Shown: positions 963 through 26,507 of the stretch, piece by piece
How positions within the stretch are numbered: position 1 is the first letter of the stretch
Layout: each line of letters begins with the position of its first letter
NCBI GenBank assembly: GCA_945874125.1
Contig: CAMCFB010000006.1
Location: 1-44,318, forward strand
Source: Verrucomicrobia subdivision 6 bacterium
GTDB lineage: Bacteria > Verrucomicrobiota > Verrucomicrobiia > Methylacidiphilales > Verrucolacustridaceae
Direction: 5' to 3'
DNA length: 44,318 nucleotides
The notes under the pieces: model-generated
The model's database searches: none
Told to the model about the DNA's origin: nothing
Seen by the model: only the letters and a program-made list of their open reading frames with translations
Program-made: the position numbers and the translations under genes

Positions 963-1649
963 TTAATCGGCTTGGCTATCCCCGCCACTGGCGGCGGGTG
1001 CGGCCGTGCCGGCGGGGACAAATTGCCACCAAGCCGTTTCGTTGATGGCATAGATCGGCTTGTAGTGCTGGATCTTGTCCGCTGTCCACACGCTTTTGAT
1101 CTGATTATCCAAAATATAGCATTGGCCGGCGGTGATGACACCAAGGATGCAGTGCCCGACCCCCAGATTAAGGTCTTTCACGACCAGCACGCGCAGTTCA
1201 TCTTGGGTGAAGCCAAGTTTTTGCAGGGCGTAATATTTGGCGATGGCGTGGTCTTCGCAATCCCCACTCACCCGCCCAGGAACAATGTAGTCGGATGGTT
1301 GGGTGAATTGAACGGGGGTATTCCAAAGATCGGGGACACCCCAGTTTTTCTGGTCGGGCACGTACCGCATGGAGTTAAAAGTTTCGTTAACCTTTTTGAT
1401 CATCTCCAACTTATCGGCCGATTGTGTTTTTTGCACAAATTCGGACCAACCACCCGCAAAGGGAGCGTTAATATCCGCTTTTTTGGCTAACTCCTCTTGC
1501 ACGCTACCCAAAATCCCCGTCCACTTGGGAAACTTGCCAATCGGCTGTTGCTGGACGACTTGGTAGTTGCCGTCCCAGGAATACAAGGCTGGCGCGCACA
1601 AGGTGCACAGCAAAACGAGGAGGCATCCGAGTGCAGTCACAAGAAACAC
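963..1649 (-). CDS. LapG-like transglutaminase-fold cysteine protease (BTLCP family), exported
   Basis: A 228-residue protein of the bacterial transglutaminase-like cysteine proteinase family (BTLCP, PF06035/DUF920), which includes periplasmic LapG. The triad is visible: Cys in SGDCEDHAIAKYY (about residue 130), His in GVGHCILGV (about 167) and Asp in YILDNQ (about 179). The N-terminus is a hydrophobic export signal or anchor. The GTG start at 1649 gives almost no positively charged n-region. In-frame sequence continues upstream to about 1700 and is Arg/Ser-rich, so translation may start further upstream at a rare codon such as ATT. The gene diverges, with about 80 bases between starts, from a membrane PAS/degenerate HD-GYP protein; in the Lap system LapG is held by the periplasmic part of an inactive c-di-GMP receptor. 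No large adhesin substrate is in the window. Family is confident; a Lap-like role is inference. Confidence 0.85.
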   Translation of the reverse strand: MFLVTALGCLLVLLCTLCAPALYSWDGNYQVVQQQPIGKFPKWTGILGSVQEELAKKADINAPFAGGWSEFVQKTQSADKLEMIKKVNETFNSMRYVPDQKNWGVPDLWNTPVQFTQPSDYIVPGRVSGDCEDHAIAKYYALQKLGFTQDELRVLVVKDLNLGVGHCILGVITAGQCYILDNQIKSVWTADKIQHYKPIYAINETAWWQFVPAGTAAPAASGGDSQAD

Positions 1650-1729
1650 ATTACACAGAATTGATGAGGCGGAAAACCTTGATCGCGCTGAAAAATAGTT
1701 AATTCTAAAAGGTAACTAGCGTTCCTCCT

Positions 1730-3928
1730 ATGGCTGACTCCACCCAACCTGCTCCGCAAGACCCGTCCAAGCTTAAGATCAATACTCCAGCCATCGATCA
1801 GGCTCCGGTGAAAAGACCTTGGAATACGACCACCATCGCAGCGGTTGCGTTTTTAGCGCTTTTCACGATCGGCGGGGTAGTGGGAATTCTGCAATTCGTG
1901 GATTCGGAAAAGAAGCGAGCGTTGCGGGATTGGCAAACGCAAATGGGGCTGGTGGCGGAGACGAGGGGGGCAGCGGTGGAAACTTGGCTCTCTTCCCAGT
2001 TTGACGTTTTACGCGCGATTGCCTCGAACGAGTCCCAAAAGATTTATATCGATACGCTGCTGAATGAGTCCGCGGAGGCCGATCAGAAAGAGGGAGCAGA
2101 AAATTTCTTAAGGAATTACTTAAAGAAGATGGCGGAAGCCAACGGCTTCTTCACGCCCCCGCCGGCTCTCGAAATCAATGCGAACGTCGTGCGGGAGGGT
2201 GTCGCGGGTATCGCGGTAGTCGCGCCCAGTGGGCAAGTTCTTGTCGCCAGTGAATTTCTCCCTGCTCTGAAAGAAGACGGCTTTATTGATGTGCTGAAGG
2301 AAAATGCCGCTCGCCAACGGGGTCTCTGGAACGTGCGGTTGGATGGGGAGGGGCAACCAAGCCTTGGTTTGATTGTTCCGATTTATCCGGTGGATGCGGC
2401 GGACAACGCCAAGCCGATTGCTTACGCGGTCGGGTTAAAACAGGTCGCCAAAGACATTTTTCCGCTGATGACCCAGCCGGGAGAAAATCTGAAAAGTGGA
2501 GAAAATTACTTGGTTCAGGAAAAGCCAGGCACCTCGGGTAACACGGTTCAGTTCCTCACTCCTCGTCGGGAGCCGCTTCCCAACGGAACCAAGCCGATGA
2601 CGAGTGATTGCCCGAATAACACGGAGACCTCAGCAGCGGCTTTTGCGCTGAAGCAGCCGGGGGCATTTGGGATTCGTCCCAGTTATGCGAATGTGCCGAG
2701 CTTAGTCCTCGGGCGTAAGATCGCCGGCACTCCGTGGGTCGTGGTGCGGACCGCTTCGGAAGAGGAGGCGCTGGGGCCGGCGAAAAAGCGGCAGACCATG
2801 ATGCTGATCGGGTTTACTTTGGTGCTGGGGTTGGCTTCGGTTTCGATGGGCGTGGCCTGGAAACACGGGGCGGAGATTCGGGCCTCGGCCGAAGCCCAGC
2901 GATTAAAAATTGCGGCCGAGCGCTTCACTGGATTTTCCAAGTTCTTGCGGGTGATCACGGATAATCAACCCACGGCGATTGCGGCGGTGGACGCTGGTGG
3001 AAAGTACAGCTTTGCGAATCGCACCTTGGCGGAGGCGGCGGGCATTACCACCGAGGAGGTGGCCGGCAAGACGATGCCGGCCGTCATCGGACCGGTCCGC
3101 GCGGCGGTGTATCAAAAAATCAACAAGCAGGTGATCGATGAGCTCTATCCGGGATGGCCGGCCGATAAAACAGAGGGGAAGTGGCAACCGCAGAAGGGGC
3201 GGCACGAGTTTGATGAGGGTGGAAAAAAGAAGTACACCAAAACAGACCATATTCCCCTGCGCGGGGACCGGGATCATCCTCCCGGGGTTCTTCTGATTGA
3301 GCAGGACATTACCGAGTTTATCGTGGAGCGAGAGAAGAGGGAACGGATGTTCCGTGGCTTGATTGAAGCCTTCGTTGCCGAGGTGGATAGCCGTCAGGCC
3401 AACCCCGCTCGAACCAACGCCAGGTTGATCGGGCGGATTGCCCGAGGAGGCGCGGAGGAGATGGGCCTTTCTCCCGTGGAGGCGGAGGCGGCGGAGTTGG
3501 CGGGTAAACTGATGAATCTGGGAACCGTTTCTCTTTCGCAAGATCTTTTAAGTAAGGGTGGAAATCGAAATGAGGAGGAGCGGACGAAGTATCGTGAAGC
3601 AATTCTACGAAGTGCCGATCTTGTGTCGGGACTGGAGTTTGAGGGCCCGGTGGCCGAGGTGATTCGGCAAGCGCAGGAGCGAGTTGATGGTTCCGGTTAT
3701 CCCAAGCGTTTGAGTGGTGATGCGATTCTTCCCGCGGCCAAGGTGGTGGCGGTGGCCAAGCGCCTGGTCGACTTGATTCAGGGGCAGGAAGGACCCGTGC
3801 AGTCGCTGGATCAGGCTTTACGAACCGTCATGAGCGAAGCGGGAGCCTCTTTGGATCGTGGGGCGGTGGCGGCGACGGTCGACTTCCTCGATAATCGCGG
3901 GGGAAGAGGAAAAGTCGGTTTAAGTTAA
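1730..3928 (+). CDS. Membrane PAS protein with a degenerate HD-GYP domain (putative non-catalytic c-di-GMP receptor)
   Basis: A 732-residue membrane sensor. Segments in order: a short cytoplasmic tail, TM1 at about 33-57, a periplasmic region at about 58-355 that looks like a Cache-type sensor, TM2 at about 357-378, a PAS domain at about 400-528 (NRTLAEAAGITTEEVAGKT), and an HD-GYP-like domain at about 535-725. The last domain keeps the GYP loop (ERVDGSGYPKRLSGD) but has lost the metal ligands: the LHDIGK position reads KLMNLGTV, the HHE motif reads AQE, and the ADVFDAL Asp position reads AKRLVDL. It should therefore not hydrolyse c-di-GMP by the known mechanism. The frame is intact over the whole length, so the losses look like a conserved loss of activity and not decay. 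It diverges from a LapG-like protease. Function as a signal receptor is inference. Confidence 0.82.
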   Translation: MADSTQPAPQDPSKLKINTPAIDQAPVKRPWNTTTIAAVAFLALFTIGGVVGILQFVDSEKKRALRDWQTQMGLVAETRGAAVETWLSSQFDVLRAIASNESQKIYIDTLLNESAEADQKEGAENFLRNYLKKMAEANGFFTPPPALEINANVVREGVAGIAVVAPSGQVLVASEFLPALKEDGFIDVLKENAARQRGLWNVRLDGEGQPSLGLIVPIYPVDAADNAKPIAYAVGLKQVAKDIFPLMTQPGENLKSGENYLVQEKPGTSGNTVQFLTPRREPLPNGTKPMTSDCPNNTETSAAAFALKQPGAFGIRPSYANVPSLVLGRKIAGTPWVVVRTASEEEALGPAKKRQTMMLIGFTLVLGLASVSMGVAWKHGAEIRASAEAQRLKIAAERFTGFSKFLRVITDNQPTAIAAVDAGGKYSFANRTLAEAAGITTEEVAGKTMPAVIGPVRAAVYQKINKQVIDELYPGWPADKTEGKWQPQKGRHEFDEGGKKKYTKTDHIPLRGDRDHPPGVLLIEQDITEFIVEREKRERMFRGLIEAFVAEVDSRQANPARTNARLIGRIARGGAEEMGLSPVEAEAAELAGKLMNLGTVSLSQDLLSKGGNRNEEERTKYREAILRSADLVSGLEFEGPVAEVIRQAQERVDGSGYPKRLSGDAILPAAKVVAVAKRLVDLIQGQEGPVQSLDQALRTVMSEAGASLDRGAVAATVDFLDNRGGRGKVGLS

Positions 3929-3935
3929 GATTCGC

Positions 3936-4436
3936 TTAGTCGGGGATCAGGCTCTGCTCAACCGTATCATCAAAACGTAGGTTCAGGAGTTTCCAGTCGG
4001 CCCCCACTGGGGTGTAAAAAACAAACTGCCAACGCAAAGGCTTACGGGGGTGGTAGCTCAGGTAGGTGAGGTAGAGGGTGCGCGTGCCCACCGAGCGTAG
4101 GTCGTACAGCTCATACCCTTGGAGAGGGCCAAATACCTCAATGCCTTTTTGGATGTTGCCGACGAACTCGGGGACGGAAGCGGGATCGGATAAGGTGGGG
4201 TTGCTGGCGACGAGAGTTTTGAAGGCCTCATCGATTTTGCCTCCTTGGACACCGAGAAAAAAAGCTTCCAGCTGTTTTTGCACGGGGGAGGGCGGCGGCT
4301 TGGTGTTGGGATTTCTTGGTAAAAGCTGGGGAATGAGAGTGGTGACCTTGGGCAAATTGGTGGGGGTAGCCTTATTGGTCGGGGCTGCCCAGAGGGAGGC
4401 GCTCATCAGGATGGTCAATAGAAGTATTTTTTTCAT
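3936..4436 (-). CDS. Small exported protein of unknown function
   Basis: A 166-residue protein that I do not recognise. It begins with a clean signal peptide (MKKILLLTILMSASLWA, cleavage probably near residue 18) and a Pro/Thr/Asn-rich linker to about residue 50. A compact domain follows: helical first half (QLEAFFLGVQGGKIDEAFKTL), then beta-rich (TRTLYLTYLSYH, RWQFVFYTP, WKLLNLRFDD). This pattern resembles small NTF2-like or DUF4019-like periplasmic proteins, but no diagnostic residue supports a firm call. The start ATG overlaps the TGA of the upstream MBL-like gene (ATGA), making it the last gene of a translationally coupled series gcvT-gcvH-MBL-like. It converges on the HD-GYP-like gene with seven bases between the two stops and no obvious hairpin. 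Confidence 0.75.
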   Translation of the reverse strand: MKKILLLTILMSASLWAAPTNKATPTNLPKVTTLIPQLLPRNPNTKPPPSPVQKQLEAFFLGVQGGKIDEAFKTLVASNPTLSDPASVPEFVGNIQKGIEVFGPLQGYELYDLRSVGTRTLYLTYLSYHPRKPLRWQFVFYTPVGADWKLLNLRFDDTVEQSLIPD

Positions 4437-21950: not shown

Positions 21951-24900
21951 TTAATTCCCGGTGACTTGGAGTCGGATGAACGCTTTTGGTTCAGTTGTGG
22001 TGATGGTGACGATCTTGCGGGTGTAACCAGATGCCGCACCCGTTGTAGTTGTGATGACGGAGCCAGCTTGGGGAGTCCAGCTGGTGAGATTCGTGGACAG
22101 TTCAGTCACGATACTGATGGTGGCATCGTCTCGGATATCGAAGGTGTAGGTGAGGGTACTCCCTGACCGCGTGATCGTGGCAGGACTTGTGCCGAGGCGA
22201 GGGAGGGCACCGTTGAAGGCGTACTGGATCCCTTCTTTTATTCCGTCACCGTTGGCGTCGGCGTTAAATGCGGTAGAGGTGGAGTAACCCAGTCCAGAGA
22301 GGTACTGCTGATAGGAGGTGAGGGTGGCTTGGGTGCCGTTGGCAGAAGAGGCGCTGGTGCCGCCTGAATTTACCGCACGGACGCGGGCATAGTAGGTGGT
22401 TCCAGGGGAGAGGCCGGTAACCGCTTGGGAAGTACCGCTGATCGTTTGGTCTTGGGTCACGTAACTAGCAAAAGAGGAGGAAGCTGAAACATCAAGCTTG
22501 TAGCTGGTGGCTCCGCTGACAGCGCCCCAGTTCACCGTGAAACCGGTGGAGGTCACAGAGGCGAAGGCGGGTGCAGCGGGTGTGGCGGGTGCAGTAACGG
22601 TTGCCGAGGCGGCCTGGTAGACGCGAACGTAGTCAACCTCATAAGTCGCCGAATTAAGAGCGGAGTCGATACTGCCACCAACGTAAGCGCCGCCCATGGC
22701 TAGATTGAGGATGAGGAAAAACTCTTTTTGGAAGGCGGCGGCATCCGCGGTTGGCGGAGTCAGAGTTGCTTTATCCACCCCATCCACGCTGAAAACCAGG
22801 TTGTTGGCGGTCCAGACAACTGCGTAGGTGTGGAAAGCGCTGGAGGGATTGACGACGGCAGAGCGGGGAGCCTCAACTGGATTGCCGCCATGGCGGGTGG
22901 CCGAGTGTATGGCGTGACCGATGGTGTTGGCGTCGCTGGTTGCCACCCCATTGAAACCACCCCGCCACTCCATCACGTCGATTTCCCCACAAGCCGGCCA
23001 ACCTGCAGACGAAATATTGTTGCCCAAAAGCCAGGCGGCAGGCCACGGACCCACTCCTGTGGGAAGTTTGGCACGAAACTCGATCTTGCCGTACTGGAAT
23101 GAGCGCAATCCTTGGGATTTGATTCGAGCCGATGTCCAGCTTGGTCCCGATTTTACGGCCTGAATGATAAGGTTGCCGCTATCGACCCGAAGATTTGCAC
23201 TATCTGAGGTGTAAGTTTGCTGTTCATTGTTGCCCCAACCATCGTTATTTGGACCGCGACCCGTCTCTGCCACCCAGTTACCAGAATTCAGGGTTGTCCC
23301 GTCAAACTCGTCCGACCAGACCAGATTGTAGGTGTTGCTTCCGACCGTTGCGGTGGGGCTGATAGTTCCAAAACCGATGGAAAGATCATCCAGATAAACT
23401 GCACCATTGCCTGAGGAAGAGGTTTGCACGAATTCGCTGACAAGCTGAACTTTAGCTGTTCCTACGGGGACGGTTCCATTCACGGTTAGAGGAACCCAAT
23501 TATTGGCGCTAAAGTTAGCCGAGGTTAAGGTGGTGACTGACCGCCCGATTTCGATATTTCCCTGATCCATATACTTAAAGCCATAATTGAATGTGCTTCC
23601 GGAGGTGAGCGGATCGATGGAGAAAACTTTGGCCATTCCTCGGGCATGAATTGTGGCGCCCACGGTAAGAGAGGGGGTCGTGTTTACAGAAAACTCTTGG
23701 TAAACAGCGCCTGTTTGACTTGTGCCCTGCCAAACATCACCAATGTAGTAATTCTGACCGTAAACTTTCATCACCTTCGTTCCGGCAAATGCCGAACTGA
23801 CAGCCGTAACATCTTCTTCCTTGGTTGATTGATTGTAGATCTTTGTCCCATTCGAAATGATATTCTTACTCACTCCCTCTGCTGGAACCTGAATCCATGA
23901 AGTAGGTGCAGAGCCTGGGCCAACGTCAGTGGAGTCCGACTCAAAACTTCCGTTCGTCAGGGAGAAGGGAGTAGCCCCGAACGATAAGTTGATCGAGTCG
24001 ATTTGAATTACATTACTGTTATCTAGGTCAAATTCAAAATCGGTCGCTTGAATGACTAATCGGTAGTAGGGGGCTGATGTGTCAAAGTTGGAGCTTCTCA
24101 CTCCCGTGGAGCCAAGAGTTCCTCCGGCTTGCGTGAAAGAAGAGCCTCCCTCTGGGACAAGAATCACAACTCGATCATTAATGCCGTCCGGTTTGAAGTA
24201 ATCCTCAATTCCGCCAGTTGTGCCGGCTGTCGTTTCGTCCGTCCAATTTCCTAGCTGGATGCCTCCAGTTACGGATAGGGCGTTGTTAAGCGACTCCAGC
24301 CGAACTTGAACCTTGTTTTGGGTCAAGCCACCAAAGACGCCCGAAGCCTTGAGACCTACCAAAAGAGTGCTGGTGCCCAGATTCAGAGTTCCCGGGGAGG
24401 CAAAAGTTTTCGATAGGGAATAAGACCATGGATAAGTGTCTCCAGAGGAATCTATATTGACCTGCAGGGCACCAGCCGAAACGCTTGAGGTGCTTGAGCC
24501 CAGCAAACCCGCTGTTGATGCATCGGGAACCCATCCGAGTTGGCTTACTGTTTCCGAGCCATTGAAGGAATCAGATAGGTTTACGGGGGTGGTGGTAAGA
24601 TTTACAACGAAGGATTGATCGGAGTTTTCTTTGTCATTGTTGCTGATGGTGAGTGTTCCAGAGAGATCGGTGAGGGAGGACGGGGAAGTTGTGATGGAGA
24701 AACTGGCACTGGCTCCAGGTGCAATGGTCAAAGGTGTGGTGACGCCAGCTAGAGCAAAGGACGAGCCTGACATAGTCACGGAACTGATCGTGAGGTCCTG
24801 ACCGCCGTTATTTTCGACCTTCAGTTGGTAAACGTTAGGCTGACCCACGATGGGAGAAATTAGGGTTTTGGAGGCATTATTGCTCGGTTGGAGAATTTCG

Positions 24901-26507
24901 TTTATTTTGACCGCGATTTGGGGTCCGATGTCCGCCGAATTGGTTTGCGTCAAGGAAACCTGATCGACGAAAACACTTCCGAAGTTGGCCTGATAGGCCC
25001 GAAAAAGGGGTTGGAACTTGAGGGTGAGGCGTCCGGCACTAAGAATGGCGGGAGTGGCCTTGAAGGTGGCTTGGTAAGCTTTCCAAGTTCCGAGTTCCCC
25101 AGAGGTTTTTTGGTTGGTCGCGACCTCCCAGGTGATGTCCTTGGTGGCAATTTCAGCGCCGCTGCCATCCATAAATGCGATATTGATGGGGGAGGCGGAG
25201 AAGTTGCTTTCAAACCTAGCTTGGAAAGTGGCGGTGAAGAAATCGCCGTTGGCCGCATTGAAAGGGATATTTTCCTGCATAAAGCCGGCAAAAGGCGTGC
25301 CCTCCCAGCCGGGGAAAAACATGTAAGGGGTATTGGCCTGAGTACCGGGTATGTTGTTCCAGATGGTTGTCGCGTCGGGGGCAACGTTGCTGGTGGTGAT
25401 GATCCGGGCTCCCTCAAAGTAGGTCCAAAATTCTTGTCCCTGGCTGGCGTCGAAATTCGGATCCGCCAGCAGGTTGGCGGGTGTGGTAACAAAGAAATTG
25501 TAAGCACTGCTCGCCGTCGCATTCGATCCCACCACAGTGATCTTGCCGGTGGTGGCGCCGGCTGGCACCACGGCCGTGATACTGGTGCCGCCGCCGTTGA
25601 CGCTCACCGAGGTTGCTGGGGTTCCGTTGAAGCTAACGCTGGGGGAGGATCCAAAAGCAACCCCGGTGATTGTGACTGAGGAGCCCGTCACTCCTGATTT
25701 GGGTGAAACTGTGCCAATAGCGGTTGTTTGCGCCGCTGGATTCGAGACCGTAAGCAGAATATCGTCAAACTCCACTCGGATACCTGCATTGGGGGCAAAA
25801 CCAGGATTTTTCCGGCCAAAGTTGGAGGGGCCTGTCGGGCTGTTGTAAGCAACATAAGCTGGAGCCGTGCTTTGGTTGTTGCCGCTAATTTCGACCGTGA
25901 TTTCGTAACTTGTGGCTGAGCTGCTGAAATTGTAGCGCGACCCCTTGGCGGCTTGTAAGCTGGTGTCATCTAAGGTCCCGCCGATAGTCACCCAATCGCT
26001 GTCGTTTTGAAGAATCGGTTCGAAGGTGATTCGTTTATAGTCAGTAAATGATCCAGGAACGTCGCCACTCGCCATGATCCGGAGGATTGCGACTGCGCCG
26101 TTTGTGGGAAGCCCCTTGGCCCTAACTTTTGCGGTAAATGAAATTTTGCTTAAGTCTGTTTGGCCTAGTCCGTTGGGTGTCGTGATGTTGGTGAGGACCT
26201 GAGCCACATACCATCCGGCATTGGTGGCTTTACTGGAAGAGTTTGCAGTCAAAGCCAGGTAACCACTGGTAGGGAGTGTCGGAAAGCCATTATTATTGGA
26301 AAGACTTGTGACGATTGTTGAGCCGAAAGCTCCAGCCCCAAGATCCGAACCAAACCACCCAAGAGCCTTGCTGGTGTTAAAATTTTCGGAGTACAGAACA
26401 GTCGATTGGGCAAAGGTTTTGGTATGGCTAAATAACGAGAGCAAAAGAAGCAAAACTGTTTTTTGAAATACTTGAAGCGAGGCAAGGCTGGGAAAGCTTC
26501 TTAACAC
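21951..26507 (-). CDS. Multidomain exported GH16 beta-glucanase (laminarinase-like)
   Basis: A 1518-residue secreted enzyme. Order: signal peptide (about 1-34, ending TFAQ); a beta-sandwich module (35-260); an IPT/TIG domain (about 266-345, SPKSGVTGSSVTITG); a CBM-like module (346-535); an ASH/choice-of-anchor-D-like domain (545-640, TISNNDKENSDQSF); two more sandwich modules (641-1045); GH16 (about 1060-1300); FN3 (about 1305-1390); and a C-terminal module (about 1395-1518). The GH16 core has WSDEFDGTTLNSGNW, the catalytic GEIDVMEW (both Glu, about 1174 and 1179) and NLAMGG; this form suits endo-beta-1,3- or 1,3-1,4-glucanases. The tail, with NADANGDGIKEGIQYAFNG and an Ig-like end (FIRLQVTGN), resembles surface-anchoring tails common in Verrucomicrobiota exoproteins. 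The GTG at 26507 is the best start, with the promoter immediately upstream. Confidence 0.92.
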   Translation of the reverse strand: MLRSFPSLASLQVFQKTVLLLLLSLFSHTKTFAQSTVLYSENFNTSKALGWFGSDLGAGAFGSTIVTSLSNNNGFPTLPTSGYLALTANSSSKATNAGWYVAQVLTNITTPNGLGQTDLSKISFTAKVRAKGLPTNGAVAILRIMASGDVPGSFTDYKRITFEPILQNDSDWVTIGGTLDDTSLQAAKGSRYNFSSSATSYEITVEISGNNQSTAPAYVAYNSPTGPSNFGRKNPGFAPNAGIRVEFDDILLTVSNPAAQTTAIGTVSPKSGVTGSSVTITGVAFGSSPSVSFNGTPATSVSVNGGGTSITAVVPAGATTGKITVVGSNATASSAYNFFVTTPANLLADPNFDASQGQEFWTYFEGARIITTSNVAPDATTIWNNIPGTQANTPYMFFPGWEGTPFAGFMQENIPFNAANGDFFTATFQARFESNFSASPINIAFMDGSGAEIATKDITWEVATNQKTSGELGTWKAYQATFKATPAILSAGRLTLKFQPLFRAYQANFGSVFVDQVSLTQTNSADIGPQIAVKINEILQPSNNASKTLISPIVGQPNVYQLKVENNGGQDLTISSVTMSGSSFALAGVTTPLTIAPGASASFSITTSPSSLTDLSGTLTISNNDKENSDQSFVVNLTTTPVNLSDSFNGSETVSQLGWVPDASTAGLLGSSTSSVSAGALQVNIDSSGDTYPWSYSLSKTFASPGTLNLGTSTLLVGLKASGVFGGLTQNKVQVRLESLNNALSVTGGIQLGNWTDETTAGTTGGIEDYFKPDGINDRVVILVPEGGSSFTQAGGTLGSTGVRSSNFDTSAPYYRLVIQATDFEFDLDNSNVIQIDSINLSFGATPFSLTNGSFESDSTDVGPGSAPTSWIQVPAEGVSKNIISNGTKIYNQSTKEEDVTAVSSAFAGTKVMKVYGQNYYIGDVWQGTSQTGAVYQEFSVNTTPSLTVGATIHARGMAKVFSIDPLTSGSTFNYGFKYMDQGNIEIGRSVTTLTSANFSANNWVPLTVNGTVPVGTAKVQLVSEFVQTSSSGNGAVYLDDLSIGFGTISPTATVGSNTYNLVWSDEFDGTTLNSGNWVAETGRGPNNDGWGNNEQQTYTSDSANLRVDSGNLIIQAVKSGPSWTSARIKSQGLRSFQYGKIEFRAKLPTGVGPWPAAWLLGNNISSAGWPACGEIDVMEWRGGFNGVATSDANTIGHAIHSATRHGGNPVEAPRSAVVNPSSAFHTYAVVWTANNLVFSVDGVDKATLTPPTADAAAFQKEFFLILNLAMGGAYVGGSIDSALNSATYEVDYVRVYQAASATVTAPATPAAPAFASVTSTGFTVNWGAVSGATSYKLDVSASSSFASYVTQDQTISGTSQAVTGLSPGTTYYARVRAVNSGGTSASSANGTQATLTSYQQYLSGLGYSTSTAFNADANGDGIKEGIQYAFNGALPRLGTSPATITRSGSTLTYTFDIRDDATISIVTELSTNLTSWTPQAGSVITTTTGAASGYTRKIVTITTTEPKAFIRLQVTGN

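Follow-up and report, generated by a model that had tools for sequence, protein, structure and literature searches.

Surface adhesins can be controlled by different dead c-di-GMP enzymes, as exemplified by LapD and DvhD. In Pseudomonas fluorescens, LapD combines a LapD/MoxY periplasmic domain with GGDEF-EAL and works with the protease LapG. The system closest to the one described here is the DvhD-DvhG pair of Desulfovibrio vulgaris Hildenborough (DVU1020/DVU1019; PDB 9rbz, 9rc0). DvhD is reported as a dCache-PAS-HD-GYP receptor with SQ in place of HD and MN in place of HH (Font et al. 2026, Nat Commun, PMC13090378). It has no metal ligands and binds c-di-GMP but does not hydrolyse it, and it is partnered by DvhG, a protease of the LapG type that cleaves two adhesins; the pair uses c-di-GMP to decide when cells release surfaces (PMC13090378). 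Verrucomicrobiota are not named in the main text of that paper (PMC13090378).

The window analysed here, a stretch of 44,318 nucleotides, corresponds to one entire contig (G000:C6) in an assembly of 1.38 Mb and 80% completeness from a freshwater/brackish planktonic bacterium. Most of its relatives in the collection searched are metagenome-assembled genomes that bear the label Verrucomicrobia subdivision 6 or simply Verrucomicrobia, and they include BACL9 from the Baltic Sea. The genomes were examined through family searches and chosen stretches of sequence. BACL9 belongs to the planktonic LD19 clade, sister of Methylacidiphilum; particle attachment by this uncultured clade is an open question (PMC4699468). 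Two adjacent divergent genes of the window, separated by 80 bp according to the sequence and ORF coordinates (1650–1729), encode a LapG/DvhG-like protease and a DvhD-like receptor.

The protease gene (963–1649, minus strand) encodes 228 amino acids. The product scored 59 bits against Peptidase_C93/BTLCP (cut-off 27) and 85 bits against the LapG model NF045674, far under the strict cut-off of that model (320). Its closest solved structures are LapG (E 2.6e-16 and 7.4e-15). The hydrophobic N-terminus fits an export signal peptide or an anchor. The initial annotation had described the Cys-His-Asp triad as intact, and this was borne out: C131, H166 and D181, together with the GDCED calcium motif in which Asp and Glu flank the Cys, were invariant in 12 relatives. 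The dN/dS of the protease core was about 0.02, indicating strong purifying selection, the ratio being approximate since dS is near saturation.

The receptor gene (1730–3928, plus strand) encodes 732 amino acids organised as TM1, Cache-like periplasmic region, TM2, PAS, stalk and degenerate HD-GYP. The two transmembrane segments (residues 32–59 and 355–377) enclose a periplasmic stretch (residues 59–355, positions 1904–2794) of about 300 residues, a length that the initial annotation had also given. The PAS domain (residues 404–530, positions 2939–3319) scored 30.9 bits with Pfam PAS_4, and the HD-GYP domain (residues 546–722, positions 3365–3895) scored 87 bits with HD_5. The best PDB match of the receptor was DvhD (9rc0, 9rbz) with a profile E-value of 1e-33, compared to 3e-12 for the next best, and the match is co-linear across PAS, stalk and HD-GYP. 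We identified the PDB record, entitled 'HD domain/sensory box protein', as DvhD because residue identities and numbering agree with the paper. Active HD-GYP phosphodiesterases (PmGH, 4mcw; V-cGAP3, 5z7c; PA4781, 4r8z) share the HD-GYP fold and gave weaker matches. Like LapD-LapG, the locus associates a LapG-like protease with a membrane receptor whose c-di-GMP-enzyme domain is dead. In contrast to LapD, neither LapD/MoxY nor GGDEF-EAL was found in the receptor by Pfam, although the same tools recognised a canonical LapD-LapG locus elsewhere in the phylum.

The periplasmic region is less easily assigned. It was matched by dCache_1 in all 12 receptor homologues, with a best E-value of 7.6e-6 and always below the curated cut-off, and, in a difference from DvhD, a profile of this region compared with solved chains retrieved no related chain. 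AlphaFold2 models had low mean pLDDT (45.5 for the full receptor, 38.8 for the periplasmic region alone) because the available relatives are all close. Foldseek with the low-confidence periplasmic model returned nothing significant (best E 0.047). Its top matches often were Cache ligand-binding domains, which weakly suggests that the region may be Cache-like.

All metal-ligand positions of the HD-GYP domain are substituted. HD is replaced by M595-N596, HH by A648-Q649 and the later Asp by K677, in agreement with the MN, AQ and Lys announced by the initial annotation, and a further metal His, aligned with DvhD H588, corresponds to A624. N596, A624, Q649 and K677 do not vary among the 12 homologues; M, I or L occurs at 595 and A or S at 648, so that each ligand (HD, His, HH, Asp) is replaced in every one of them. 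Unlike for the active phosphodiesterases, no metal-dependent catalysis would therefore be expected of this domain. The GYP loop, said to be kept, survives in just two sequences, those of the window and its closest relative, and the ten remaining homologues carry GFP or GWP. The pair as a whole, in which a BTLCP protease retaining the C-H-D triad and the calcium motif lies next to a PAS-HD-GYP receptor with two TM segments and no metal ligands, resembles DvhD-DvhG. The proposal of a LapD-LapG-like circuit, made from the sequence alone, is supported as far as the pairing of a dead HD-GYP receptor with a LapG-like protease is concerned, since this architecture was shown experimentally for DvhD-DvhG, and the accompanying statement that no example of the combination was described has to be withdrawn for the same reason (PMC13090378).

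To compare nucleotide binding, the c-di-GMP contacts of DvhD were mapped onto the 12 homologues, with the same pairing obtained by HMMER and hhalign. At the canonical site, only K582 (here Lys/Arg) of the eight DvhD contacts is retained in all homologues. L577, M646, R650 and E668 are replaced throughout, by Arg, Leu, Gln and Ala respectively. Y652 is Gly, or Ser in one homologue; Y523 is replaced in all by varying residues, and Y621 in ten, two retaining it. At the bridging site, K520 is Arg, P567 is Pro or Ser and R569 is mostly Asp. In the window protein, R613, Q686, G688 and A704 stand at contact positions. These changes do not all weigh equally: M646L is mild, and metal-bearing HD-GYPs of relatives likewise lack E668 and are variable at 650 and 652. 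In DvhD mutants R650 and Y652 mattered, Y652 having been tested solely together with R653 (PMC13090378). The losses of R650 and Y652, plus the L577 to Arg change, are the strongest point against binding in the DvhD mode, short of proof that binding is lost.

We then looked at genes for cyclic dinucleotides in the genus. GGDEF was found in 2 of the 19 genomes, where about 15 would be expected for a core gene, the genomes being incomplete; none was detected in the window genome or in 16 of its 18 congeners. The two exceptions (G005 and G006) have one GGDEF-EAL protein each, with an intact GGDEF motif. PilZ was detected in none of the 15 genus genomes examined, and in 15 genomes searched no HD_5 protein was found besides the receptor. 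The DAC domain (c-di-AMP synthase) was present in 13 of 15. DvhD-DvhG and the present pair therefore differ in that most c-di-GMP contacts are replaced here and that the genus has almost no GGDEF and no detected PilZ, and the earlier view of the dead HD-GYP as the nucleotide receptor is weakened by the same observations. G005 and G006 show the same pocket changes, so that pocket loss does not simply track GGDEF absence. The G005 receptor (L079, 8021–10180) is the most divergent copy (71% identity); 12 stalk-helix residues before the HD-GYP are missing and TM1 differs.

Purifying selection was observed on every domain of the receptor, with dN/dS of 0.02 for the PAS, the best-conserved part, 0.07 for the HD-GYP and 0.08 for the periplasmic region, all approximate because dS is near saturation. 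The HD-GYP would thus still have a role, even if other than nucleotide binding.

From these data we tentatively favour a DvhD-type receptor still paired with the protease and uncoupled from c-di-GMP, with the PAS and/or the Cache as input. The pair would be a LapD/LapG-type periplasmic proteolysis switch of Dvh design. The exported protease would cut a surface or periplasmic protein, possibly adhesin-like, and the receptor would act on it via its periplasmic Cache-like domain, as DvhD does on DvhG. The HD-GYP would be a pseudo-enzyme whose metal site is gone together with most DvhD-type contacts, and which is kept for dimerisation and transmission. The signal would most likely no longer be c-di-GMP, because the contacts are mostly lost and the cells mostly lack a detectable diguanylate cyclase; the strongly constrained PAS and/or the Cache would receive another input. 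Put in terms of evolution, an inside-out Lap/Dvh-type switch may have shed c-di-GMP, leaving a nucleotide-blind HD-GYP driven by PAS or Cache in a genus nearly without c-di-GMP signalling, an outcome that we regard as plausible and far from assured. The pair looks like a further step beyond LapD and DvhD, in which the protease logic is kept, the nucleotide site eroded and the nucleotide-making enzymes mostly gone. If this is true, rewiring of the receptor-protease module to a new input is feasible, and this natural variant shows which parts of DvhD (stalk, PAS, Cache) may suffice for signal transmission. The locus also puts a pair of the Dvh kind into Verrucomicrobiota, which are only distantly related to Desulfovibrio.

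A working DvhD-DvhG system, in which the degenerate HD-GYP binds c-di-GMP (or 3′3′-cGAMP) through an altered site and holds the protease back at high nucleotide, appears unlikely to us. Lys/Arg at K582, Arg at K520 and the GYP Tyr retained in the window make such an altered site possible; homology and architecture are shared with DvhD, a receptor that binds c-di-GMP although it has no metal ligands (PMC13090378), and a GGDEF-EAL protein exists in two congeners while the window genome is 80% complete. However, all 12 homologues carry an identical substitution at most canonical contacts, which holds also for the two that stem from, or are close to, GGDEF-bearing genomes, and GGDEF is absent in 17 of 19 genomes, with no PilZ.

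The protease and receptor may also be mere neighbours acting in separate pathways with no direct functional link, which we consider improbable to a similar degree. The pair was adjacent and divergent in all 16 genus genomes holding both genes, a juxtaposition that is not due to chance. Where contigs were long enough, the same block was found, leuS, protease, receptor, a gene for a 166-aa protein, a metallo-beta-lactamase-like gene, gcvH and gcvT. Since the whole block is syntenic, housekeeping genes included, adjacency alone is weak functional evidence, and the genes are divergent, as opposed to an operon. In addition, a lone BTLCP with no LapD-like gene occurs in another Verrucomicrobiota genome (G291). 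On the other side, BTLCP is rare in the phylum, with 3 of 388 genomes above the cut-off (the window genome, G291 and G424), and here it adjoins a receptor whose closest solved relative regulates a BTLCP. In addition, no HD_5 protein beyond that receptor turned up in the genus genomes. Among the genomes searched, close relatives of the two proteins were restricted to this genus, and the other relatives sampled did not yield the pair. The initial annotation had named a lack of conservation in relatives as a refutation; this check did not refute the proposal, but conservation was confined to one genus of those sampled.

The least probable explanation is that the pocket of the HD-GYP has been adapted to a different nucleotide or anion, e.g. 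c-di-AMP: basic residues were gained at fixed pocket positions (R613, K677), the domain is under purifying selection and DAC is widespread in the genus, but relatives lacking the receptor have DAC just as often, and we know of no c-di-AMP receptor of the HD-GYP type. DvhD is moreover reported to be a poor c-di-AMP binder (PMC13090378).

Elsewhere in the phylum, the control locus is located on contig C29 of G424 (L202, 1011–5191) and comprises a canonical LapD (LapD/MoxY, GGDEF, EAL), a LapG and a LapA-like Calx-beta protein; this genome is filed under Verrucomicrobiota, and the locus may come from contamination or transfer. A match in the same order (L019) proved to be a different transglutaminase-like protein with no such partner and was discarded as a counterpart. 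Plasmid searches retrieved only ordinary HD-GYP and LapG relatives.

We also searched for a substrate of the protease. In further differences from DvhD-DvhG, the two genes are divergent and the locus carries no linked adhesin or secretion genes: no large adhesin or type I secretion system was found there. Searches for an RTX protein or adhesin, and those with type I secretion parts, gave no candidate; no adhesin was recovered, although the initial annotation had proposed looking for LapA-like ones, and the [T/A/P]AAG motif is absent from the two large window proteins. One large protein of the window, of 1518 amino acids (21951–26507, minus strand), looks secreted and combines GH16, fibronectin type III and HYDIN-like Ig domains, with no LapG-type cleavage motif. 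Contig C2 of the window genome (L163, 14891–19786) harbours an ABC (LssB/LapB-like)-HlyD-OEP cluster resembling type I secretion, with no adjacent adhesin. Full or near-full length orthologues of its ABC component were present only in G005, G006 and G011 of 13 congeners searched, and owing to this patchy occurrence the LapBCE-like cluster is not co-conserved with the pair.

Next to the receptor, the gene for the 166-aa protein (3936–4436, minus strand) encodes a secreted-looking product that belongs to no Pfam family and shows 67–96% identity across the genus. The C-terminal tail of the protease (966–1022, minus strand) is rich in Ala, Pro and Gly. In most relatives this tail contains an AAAG or PAAG string resembling the LapG cleavage motif, which is absent from the window copy. 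The string is probably a compositional effect, and it is conceivable that the tail is autoinhibitory or self-cleaved.
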